A stretch of DNA of 55,988 bases, taken from positions 1 through 55,988 of the IMG/VR virus record IMGVR_UViG_3300025141_000115. One strand, written 5' to 3'. Both the position numbers and the translations under genes were made by a program. The notes under the pieces are model-generated. The model saw nothing but the letters and a program-made list of their open reading frames with translations, made no database searches and was not told where the DNA came from. This document shows, one piece after another, positions 22,955 through 26,411 of the stretch. Position 1 is the first letter of the stretch. Each line of letters begins with the position of its first letter. Source of the stretch: a virus.

Positions 22955-23716
22955 ATGATAAAAGATCACGTTATTTCATTATACGATTACACGGGGGAAG
23001 CATTGCGTCCATGGGCAGAGGCCGGATATCAATGTTTCGCTTACGACATTCAACATAAGCCAAGCCCGATGGGTGAATTGGAACCCGCAAGCGGTATTGC
23101 TTTTAAGGGCAAAGGTCATATTTTCAAGATCCATGCTGATCTTTATGACGAAAGCGTTCTTATGAAAATCGCGGGGCGTCACATGAACAATGCAAAATTC
23201 CTATCTGCGTTCCCTCCATGCACCGACCTGAGTTCAGCGGGTGCGAGATGGTGGAAGGACAAAGAAAAGGAAAATCCTTTGTTTCAGGTATTCGCCCGAC
23301 ATAATGTTGTGGCTTGTCAGCACTTGGCAGACACTTTGGACTGTCGTTATTATATAGAAAATCCAGTGGGGGCATTGAGCACTTTATGGCGTAAACCGAA
23401 CCACACTTTTAACCCATGTGATTACGGTGGTTATTTGCCGGAAGATGATGTTCATCCTCAGTATCCAGATTACATCCCTCCCCGTGACGCCTATAGAAAG
23501 AAGACTTGTCTATGGTCGGGGAACCGTTTTCAAATGCCAGAAATTAACCCCGTTCAGTATGAGACACTTGTATACGAGCGGAAAGACCCCACCAAAAGTG
23601 GGAACTTCTCACCCGTCCATGGTCGCACGGGTGGTAAATCACTGAAGACCAAAAACATTCGTTCGGCAACGCCCCGTGGTTTTGCCAGAGCGGTGTTCAA
23701 ACACAATAGTCATTAG
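22955..23716 (+). CDS. C5-cytosine-methyltransferase-like protein (no TRD)
   Basis: A 253-residue protein. Methyltransferase marks: SAM-loop-like YDYTGEALRPWAEAGY (~12-27), motif IV-like FPPCTDLSSAG (Pro-Cys, ~residue 88), motif VI-like YYIENPVGALSTLW (~133-146) and a C-terminal SATPRGFARAVF. It is shorter than Dcm enzymes, and the region for target recognition is reduced. It may be an active methylase with unusual specificity, or act on a modified base. It has its own ribosome site and is followed by the gene at 23731. Confidence 0.7.
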   Translation: MIKDHVISLYDYTGEALRPWAEAGYQCFAYDIQHKPSPMGELEPASGIAFKGKGHIFKIHADLYDESVLMKIAGRHMNNAKFLSAFPPCTDLSSAGARWWKDKEKENPLFQVFARHNVVACQHLADTLDCRYYIENPVGALSTLWRKPNHTFNPCDYGGYLPEDDVHPQYPDYIPPRDAYRKKTCLWSGNRFQMPEINPVQYETLVYERKDPTKSGNFSPVHGRTGGKSLKTKNIRSATPRGFARAVFKHNSH

Positions 23717-23730
23717 AAAGGAGAAATCAA

Positions 23731-23976
23731 ATGGCGATAGCAAAACCAACTTCTAAGAAACGTAAACCTTACGGTAAACGTCAGAAGACTTACTATTGGG
23801 ATTGGAAGACAAGGTTAAACGCTGAACAGTACATCGAAAAGCTTTGCGGTGTATTGGAAAGTCCCTTGGATTCCATGTACCAAATGGATGGCAACATGAT
23901 GATTTCCGACTATCACGAATTGATTAGTGGGTTACATCATATCCGCAACCGCAATGAGAAACCTAGTCGTGGTTGA
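23731..23976 (+). CDS. Small basic protein
   Basis: An 81-residue protein with a Lys/Arg-rich N-terminus (AKPTSKKRKPYGKRQKTYYW) and a helical second half. AAAGGAG lies 9 bases ahead of ATG 23731. The basic N-terminus suggests nucleic acid binding. Function unknown. Confidence 0.65.
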   Translation: MAIAKPTSKKRKPYGKRQKTYYWDWKTRLNAEQYIEKLCGVLESPLDSMYQMDGNMMISDYHELISGLHHIRNRNEKPSRG

Positions 23977-24193
23977 GGTAATCAACATTGGTGATAAGTG
24001 CGTAGAGTGCGGTGAAGACACCGCATTCGGCACTGGAAAGTTCATCAATCGTGTCTGTGCTGAAGTTCAGGAAAGTGTGGATCATGATAGGATTGAGGGA
24101 TATATGTGCGGTGATTGCTTATCCAAAGCGGAAGAGGAGTGGGCGGAATGTTCTGAAGCGGAAGAGGAGTTTGAGAAATGCATATCCATATAG
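23954..24193 (+). CDS. Zinc-ribbon protein, paralogue 1
   Basis: A 79-residue frame. It contains KCVECGEDTAFGTGKFINRV and, later, YMCGDCLSKAEEEWAEC, giving two CxxC pairs for one zinc. ATG 23954 has no good ribosome site; GAGG lies ahead of an ATT codon at ~23985 (after VEVIN), so the true start is uncertain. It is a clear paralogue of the next gene, which overlaps its end by 16 bases. Confidence 0.6.
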   Translation: MRNLVVVEVINIGDKCVECGEDTAFGTGKFINRVCAEVQESVDHDRIEGYMCGDCLSKAEEEWAECSEAEEEFEKCISI

Positions 24194-24546
24194 ATAATAA
24201 ATGTGTAGAGTGCGGTGAGGACACCGCATTCGGCACTAAAAAATTCATCAATCGCATTCCAGTAGACCATCCGGCCTATGAAATATGGGCAAAGGATAAA
24301 CAATATATGTGTGGTCATTGCGTTTCCGAAGCTGATGAAGAGTGGCCTCTTTTTCATGAGGGGATTTCCCCCGTCAGGGAAATGAAAATCAAGATGGCAC
24401 AGAAACTTGTCCGGCAAGCTGTTGAAACCTATGCGGAAGAAGCACGGGGCAACGGTATGTCGGTTTCTGATTATTTTGATTTGAAACAAGCAATGGAAAG
24501 CATTGATGAATTAATTCTTAGATATACGGAAGGAGATGATGAATGA
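24178..24546 (+). CDS. Zinc-ribbon protein, paralogue 2
   Basis: A 122-residue protein. Residues 8-28 (NKCVECGEDTAFGTKKFINR) repeat those of the gene before, with a second pair in MCGHCVSEADEEWP. It then has a unique helical C-terminal half (AQKLVRQAVETYAEEARGNG). GGAAGAGGAG lies ahead of ATG 24178. A DNA- or protein-binding zinc ribbon; partner unknown. Confidence 0.7.
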   Translation: MHIHIDNKCVECGEDTAFGTKKFINRIPVDHPAYEIWAKDKQYMCGHCVSEADEEWPLFHEGISPVREMKIKMAQKLVRQAVETYAEEARGNGMSVSDYFDLKQAMESIDELILRYTEGDDE

Positions 24547-25306: not shown

Positions 25307-26173
25307 ATGTTGAAAACTCTCGATTTGTTCAGTGGTATTGGTGGCTTCGCAGTTGGTCTTGAGGCCACCAATTTTTTTAAAACAACGTGCTTCGTGGAGC
25401 AGGAGCCGTATTGCCAAGCGGTTTTACGGCATCACTGGCCCGAAGTTCCAATTTTAGGAGATATAAAAAATGTCAAAAGATCCGACCTCCCCGACCCCGA
25501 CCCAGATGTCATTCTTGGAGGATTCCCCTGCCAGCCTTTCAGTCAAGCCGGACATCAAAAGGCCCAATCCGACTCCCGACATCTCTGGCCGGAAATGTTT
25601 AGGCTCATCAAAGAGTGTAGGCCGACTTGGGTTATTGGAGAAAACGTTATTGGAATCGTCAAATTGGGCTTGGACGAAGTACTCACTGACTTGGAGAACG
25701 AAGGCTACGCCACAAGGACGTTTAATATTCCAGCTTGCGCGGTTGGCGCCCCGCACCTCCGGCAAAGAGTCTGGATTATTGCACACTCCGACAGCAAAGG
25801 GGAACCAGATGGCTCCATCGATGCTAAAGCACAAGGGGAATTGGGCAACAGGGATACGGGAACGAGGCCAGAAGATGTGGCCGACCCCCAGAGTGAGCGA
25901 CACGGAAGGGGGAGTAGTGAAGAATGTGGAAATGAACAACGGATCATTCTCCCGAAGGAACAAGAAGGGGGAACGATGGGGAGTGAAGCTGAAGGATGCG
26001 GTGAACCATACCGACCCGAACAGTGGTGGGAGTTTGAACCCTCAGTGGGTCGCTTGGCTCATGGGGTACAAAACAGAGTATCTCAAATCCGTGCCTTGGG
26101 AAACTCAATCATCCCGCAAATCGCGAAGGAAATAGGTGATGCCATTAAAAAATCTGAAGAAAGCTTTTTATAA
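25307..26173 (+). CDS. dcm: DNA cytosine-5 methyltransferase
   Basis: A 288-residue protein with motif I DLFSGIGGF (residues 6-14), motif IV GGFPCQPFS with catalytic Cys75, motif VI GENV (111-114), motif VIII LRQRVWIIA (151-159) and motif X RALGNSIIPQIAKEIG near the end. It methylates cytosine at C5, probably to protect phage DNA. The region between VIII and X (~160-240) is low-complexity and hydrophilic; in the +1 frame the same DNA encodes a second conserved protein. The start is ATG 25307; no strong ribosome site is seen. Confidence 0.9.
   Translation: MLKTLDLFSGIGGFAVGLEATNFFKTTCFVEQEPYCQAVLRHHWPEVPILGDIKNVKRSDLPDPDPDVILGGFPCQPFSQAGHQKAQSDSRHLWPEMFRLIKECRPTWVIGENVIGIVKLGLDEVLTDLENEGYATRTFNIPACAVGAPHLRQRVWIIAHSDSKGEPDGSIDAKAQGELGNRDTGTRPEDVADPQSERHGRGSSEECGNEQRIILPKEQEGGTMGSEAEGCGEPYRPEQWWEFEPSVGRLAHGVQNRVSQIRALGNSIIPQIAKEIGDAIKKSEESFL
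25470..26135 (+). CDS. Overprinted ORF within the methyltransferase gene
   Basis: A 221-residue frame lying wholly inside the methyltransferase gene, +1 frame. It has its own ribosome site (AGGAG at 25456-25460, 9 bases before ATG 25470). The sequence is not random: SFLEDSPASLS near the start, KYSLTWRTKATPQGRLIFQL, SGLLHTPTAKGN, KMWPTPRVSDTEGG and GGSLNPQWVAWLMGY near the end. These are hallmarks of a phage protein family commonly found with Dcm genes. It ends 3 bases before the next start. Probably a real second product; function unknown. Confidence 0.6.
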   Translation: MSKDPTSPTPTQMSFLEDSPASLSVKPDIKRPNPTPDISGRKCLGSSKSVGRLGLLEKTLLESSNWAWTKYSLTWRTKATPQGRLIFQLARLAPRTSGKESGLLHTPTAKGNQMAPSMLKHKGNWATGIRERGQKMWPTPRVSDTEGGVVKNVEMNNGSFSRRNKKGERWGVKLKDAVNHTDPNSGGSLNPQWVAWLMGYKTEYLKSVPWETQSSRKSRRK

Positions 26174-26411
26174 GTTTCAGTTAAAATACCCGACCGGAAA
26201 GGATTTTAACCCGACTATCCGTAGGCTTATCGAACTTGTGAATAAATCTAAAATGAGTAGCTCACAAGTTTGTCTTAAAGCTGGAATAAACGTTAATACT
26301 ATAACGGGATGGAGGAACAATAGAAGAAATCCAAGTTTAGAAAATTTCCAGGCGGTGTTGAAAGTTTTAGGGTATAAATTAGTTATTAGATCAATTAACG
26401 CAAAGGATTAG
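26139..26411 (+). CDS. HTH (XRE/Cro-like) regulator
   Basis: A 90-residue protein from ATG 26139, overlapping the methyltransferase by 35 bases. A Cro/C1-type helix-turn-helix is seen in VNKSKMSSSQVCLKAGINVN TITGWRNNRRNPSLENFQAV, then a C-terminal LGYKLVI. It could control the modification genes or the early/late switch, and might bind one of the operator arrays. Target is unknown. Confidence 0.75.
   Translation: MPLKNLKKAFYKFQLKYPTGKDFNPTIRRLIELVNKSKMSSSQVCLKAGINVNTITGWRNNRRNPSLENFQAVLKVLGYKLVIRSINAKD

Follow-up and report, generated by a model that had tools for sequence, protein, structure and literature searches.

A viral cytosine-5 DNA methyltransferase gene with a second, selected reading frame that probably encodes a partner chain

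Gene layout of the methyltransferase locus

We analysed a methyltransferase locus on the plus strand of a 55,988-nucleotide viral DNA (IMG/VR record IMGVR_UViG_3300025141_000115, hereafter the window). The large chain of a C5-cytosine methyltransferase, here termed alpha, is encoded at positions 25,307–26,173 (288 aa). It matches PF00145 (1.1e-43) over residues 3–166 only, phrog_363 (1e-77), and M.HhaI, with which it aligns over residues 2–160 only. Alignment places motif I (DLFSGIGGF) at 25,322–25,348, motif IV with the catalytic PCQ (GGFPCQPFS) at 25,517–25,543, motif VI (ENV) at 25,640–25,648 and motif VIII (PHLRQRVWIIAH) at 25,751–25,786, near the end of the PF00145 and M.HhaI matches, and motif X (RALGNSIIPQ) at 26,090–26,119. 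The recognition-domain slot after motif VIII (25,787–26,026, residues ~161–240) is occupied by a Gly/Glu-rich linker (E 13 and G 13 of 78 residues). The first-pass annotation had described the host frame as low in complexity at this point, and it is indeed the least-constrained part of alpha.

A second open reading frame, beta, lies in the +1 frame of alpha at 25,470–26,135 on the same strand, 3′ of motif I, and encodes 221 aa from an ATG start. A Shine-Dalgarno sequence, AGGAG, is found at 25,456–25,460, 9 nt 5′ of the ATG; both the 221-codon frame and its ribosome-binding site had been noted in the first-pass annotation. Beta belongs to the phrog_1008 family (5.5e-24) and has a calculated pI of 10.5, and a basic character is shared by most of its relatives (pI >9 in 45/52). 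Alignment and structure prediction point to a beta-hairpin in the block SLTWRTKATPQGRLIFQL (25,683–25,736). A WPTP unit at 25,878–25,889, which alpha reads as VADP, varies in copy number in alignments of relatives, and a motif IX-like block, SLNPQWVAWLMGY, at 26,031–26,069 coincides with the peak of a motif-IX profile. The family blocks quoted in the first-pass annotation are borne out by the phrog_1008 match; conservation among relatives is highest in SLTW..ATPQGRL..QL and LNPxWVxWLMGY, and phage records also encode beta, as had been claimed.

The neighbourhood holds several further genes. An HTH gene (HTH_3, 26,136–26,411) has its GTG start at 26,136, where it immediately follows the stop codon of beta and still overlaps the end of alpha, an arrangement that suggests translational coupling. 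A gene for a DNA methyltransferase of another kind (phrog_757, 2.7e-66) lies ~1.6 kb upstream at 22,955–23,716. Two tandem paralogues at 23,927–24,193 and 24,178–24,546 have in common the sequence NKCVECGEDTAFGTxKFINR with CxxC pairs, and appear zinc-ribbon-like.

Selection in the two overlapping frames

Relatives of beta were collected in a viral scan (94, of which 80 were kept) and a genome scan (243, of which 80 were kept). Beta lies at +1 in 145/145 loci with a complete alpha. Two loci, L246 and L248, have beta at +2 relative to the alpha start; their alpha looks frameshifted after motif IV, with beta and motif X intact. Given that alpha looks broken, both were left out of the evidence, as were 10 viral loci without a motif X match.

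We evaluated the openness of the +1 frame by shuffling the synonymous codons of each alpha, which keeps both the alpha protein and its codon use. In 20,000 such shuffles of the window gene, a +1 open run of this length arose with P=0.0003, compared with P=0.055 for the +2 frame. Across 52 lineages of <65% alpha identity, 18 stops were seen in the +1 frame against 284 expected, a count that runs to the last overlapping codon and may include beta's own stop, whereas the +2 control frame held 679 stops against 676 expected. The depletion coincides with the extent of beta. In 35 lineages there were no +1 stops inside beta opposite alpha motifs IV–VIII (121 expected) and none past motif VIII (63 expected), and the region 5′ of beta held 83 stops against an expected 77. 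The Shine-Dalgarno match 5′ of beta scored 4.7, compared with 2.5 in synonymous shuffles (51 lineages, log10 P -7.4). Most loci were found by similarity to beta, which biases the sample toward loci with an open beta; the samples drawn with PF00145 are small but less prone to this bias. The upstream and +2 controls and the PF00145-based samples argue against biased retrieval as the cause of the open frame.

Substitution classes agree with the stop counts. In 196 pairs, NN/NS and SN/SS were 0.54 and 0.30 in beta, compared with 1.05 and 0.65 outside the overlap, and NN/SN was 0.59 in alpha; these pairs have sequences in common, and the ratios are estimates without error bars. Over motifs IV–VIII alpha is the stronger frame, and beta there has NN/NS 0.63 and SN/SS 0.28. 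Between VIII and X the balance is reversed, with alpha near-neutral (NN/SN 0.88) and beta constrained (NN/NS 0.50), and in the motif X region both frames are constrained. The suggestion that the host frame yields to the second frame thus holds in the recognition-domain slot. Beta is a protein-coding gene under selection, and purifying selection acts on both frames. This is the outcome of the synonymous-rate comparison proposed in the first-pass annotation, which had rightly taken the pair for a complete, long-kept overlap.

Motif IX and a proposed two-chain enzyme

A conserved block of the beta family, LNPxWVxWLMGFPxGW, resembles motif IX of C5-methyltransferases. Using a motif IX profile built from 15 canonical enzymes, LNPxWVxWLMG was the best site in 65/67 betas, with 53 of these 65 scoring higher than the 99% level of shuffles, and alpha held no profile site. 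In the window's beta, motif IX has diverged, carrying KTE where P-x-G is usual and scoring -5.9, near the shuffle mean; its motif IX-like block is nonetheless the best profile site in its beta. Gene structures were compared in a PF00145 search of six genomes and in a sample of 81 genomes from the phylum to which G001 (Clostridium porci) belongs. Methyltransferases that match PF00145 in full and have a motif IX of their own were without a beta frame there, and one was present in those whose match ends near motif VIII. The exception, L210, is a truncated canonical gene without motif IX and without beta.

Searches of Pfam, NCBIfam and the PDB with beta gave no methyltransferase match. AlphaFold2 models of beta alone reached a mean pLDDT of 53.8 and 64.0 in two runs and were confident only in two elements, the hairpin and the helix of motif IX, and Foldseek returned no match to the model. 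The poor predicted fold of the lone chain fits a protein that would fold only with its partner.

These data allow us to propose that the pair is, very probably, a single cytosine-5 DNA methyltransferase made as two polypeptides that are translated from overlapping reading frames in the same mRNA. Alpha, in frame 0, would provide AdoMet binding and catalysis (motifs I, IV, VI and VIII) as well as motif X, and its recognition-domain slot would serve as a flexible linker that lets reading continue as far as motif X. Beta would be started independently in the +1 frame from its own Shine-Dalgarno sequence, 163 nt into alpha, and would bring motif IX; it is presumably also the carrier of the target-recognition part. 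Docked on alpha, beta would make up the rest of the small domain with which the enzyme holds DNA, with assembly probably taking place on the DNA itself. Complex formation, DNA recognition by beta and methylation activity are inferred. The overlap would yield both chains together and keep them joined in horizontal transfer.

Three other readings have to be set against this. The +1 frame could be a by-product, without a product of its own, of a conserved host gene and its composition. GC-rich codons lower stop density, and the window ORF taken alone reaches only the P value given above; yet the reading is contradicted by the stop and substitution tests, in which stops are depleted from the +1 frame with the control frame and upstream region at expectation, and in which constraint on the beta frame exceeds that on alpha in the recognition slot. 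We regard its probability as negligible. A programmed +1 frameshift, which would produce one long chain from alpha motifs I–VIII and beta with no independent beta start, fits the frame order, in that motifs I–VIII lie in frame 0 and the recognition part and motif IX follow in +1. Such a fusion would, however, skip the first ~110 residues of beta, the conserved and selected stretch opposite motifs IV–VIII in which no stops occur, and in the nested forms it would lose motif X. A Shine-Dalgarno site and a start codon also precede beta. The fusion was rejected on the evidence of selection at the beta N-terminus and is very improbable.

A separate role for beta outside the enzyme, as an overprinted accessory protein such as a regulator, inhibitor or anti-restriction factor, is likewise highly improbable. 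The motif IX profile match in beta argues against this, as do the presence of beta where the host methyltransferase is without motif IX and the occurrence of IX and X in one chain in split relatives; the small size and basic character of beta, and the lack of a fold match or of a homologue of known function for it, would be in keeping with an accessory role. The two-chain enzyme accounts for the motif content, and the "unknown function" assigned in the first-pass annotation gives way to it, in that beta carries motif IX of the same cytosine methyltransferase and is best read as its second subunit. The term "overprinted" from that annotation is only partly apt, as motif IX is part of the common methyltransferase core. 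Its frame may therefore date back to the origin of the enzyme, and either alpha or beta could be the later addition.

Relatives, alternative layouts and known systems

The pair is spread over at least 14 bacterial phyla, judged from record titles and tree origins, and also occurs in phages and E. coli prophages. Among the fetched loci we found neither beta without alpha nor a single-chain fusion of alpha motifs I–VIII with beta. The layout itself varies. In L150, alpha stops directly after motif VIII and the +1 ORF continues through IX and then X in one chain, and a viral search with this second chain found 22 further split loci among 80, with beta at +1. The ORFs of such split relatives (L150, L226, L227, L229 and others) still overlap by ~100–150 codons. 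The alphas of nested and split forms make up one clade (support 96) apart from 12 canonical enzymes, and within it the two layouts are intermingled, requiring 8 changes on a quick tree with many weak branches. Motif X therefore sits now in alpha and now in the second chain, as expected if both form one enzyme. On balance we favour the view that these loci represent a large class of cytosine methyltransferases, hitherto unrecognised and spanning at least 14 bacterial phyla and their phages, in which the recognition half is double-coded opposite a disposable linker of the catalytic half and motif X has moved repeatedly between chains. If this is correct, recognition modules in the form of variable WPTP-unit arrays could evolve freely, since they face only neutral linker sequence in the other frame.

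M.EcoHK31I is a C5-methyltransferase of E. coli (YGGCCR), and M.AquI is a two-chain C5-methyltransferase (CYCGRG). The 176-aa beta chain of M.EcoHK31I is reportedly read from another frame inside its alpha gene. Of its two polypeptides, the smaller has motif IX alone and the larger has the other motifs, and in M.AquI motifs IX–X are in the smaller subunit (PMC3404938); M.EcoHK31I has been termed naturally split (PMC3439449). The window's large chain resembles that of M.EcoHK31I in having motifs I–VIII and X without IX, and the small chain likewise has motif IX at the family level (65/67), the window's own copy being divergent. A small chain nested in another frame of the large-chain gene is a further likeness, for M.EcoHK31I by report and here at +1 throughout. 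This likeness is one of layout and motif placement. In M.EcoHK31I, by contrast, the recognition domain is assigned to the larger chain, whereas here the corresponding alpha stretch is linker sequence under almost no constraint, with beta lying across the slot.

The split relatives are closer to M.AquI, with I–VIII in alpha and IX and X in the second chain; they differ in that part of the variable region is in M.AquI alpha and in that their own ORFs overlap. The window's gene is nested and its alpha carries motif X itself, so it does not have the M.AquI type of split, in which X lies with IX in the second chain. Monomeric C5-methyltransferases of the PF00145 and phage Dcm type have the same motifs I–VIII and X as alpha, but canonical PF00145 members also contain a recognition domain and a motif IX and are without a beta frame; the window's alpha, lacking both in the same chain, does not have the monomeric layout. 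The phrog_1008 entry "DNA methyltransferase" is the beta family itself, labelled without a subunit role, and is best read as the partner chain.

In open-licence papers, the only literature found on this overlap was mentions of M.EcoHK31I and M.AquI, and no description was found there of the family at this breadth or of nested/split switching, although earlier notice, for example in REBASE, is possible. The two-chain kind of C5-methyltransferase is already known; its breadth across at least 14 phyla, phages and E. coli prophages and the repeated switching between nested and split forms are new. Prokaryotes have few long same-strand overlaps in which the role of each protein is known, and the many lineages with natural nested and split versions offer a model for how overlaps form and are resolved. 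On this reading, the annotation of many "Dcm" genes of phages and prophages, and any clone based on it, would cover half of an enzyme, and methylation assays with alpha alone may yield false negatives. Annotation of beta in phage records is uneven: phiEc3, R9.1 and E. coli prophages carry both frames but have a single CDS annotated, and in some Paenibacillus phages both frames are annotated as "DNA-cytosine methyltransferase".

Two side observations concern variation in the recognition region. The WPTP units of beta and VADP units of alpha lengthen both frames together, from ~160 to 390 codons (for example in L032, L038 and L063), and may be exchangeable recognition modules. In G001, two methyltransferases of another C5 clade (L185 and L186, minus strand, at ~2129 and 2111 of the reversed locus) have a long recognition domain, with motif IX recognisable in L186. 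After motif VIII they share a different +1-frame block, SLSQILE...YxLSxxACxGILRRAExRGKxLPxxLxxAL, open for 144 and 158 aa, which is possibly a second overprinted partner.
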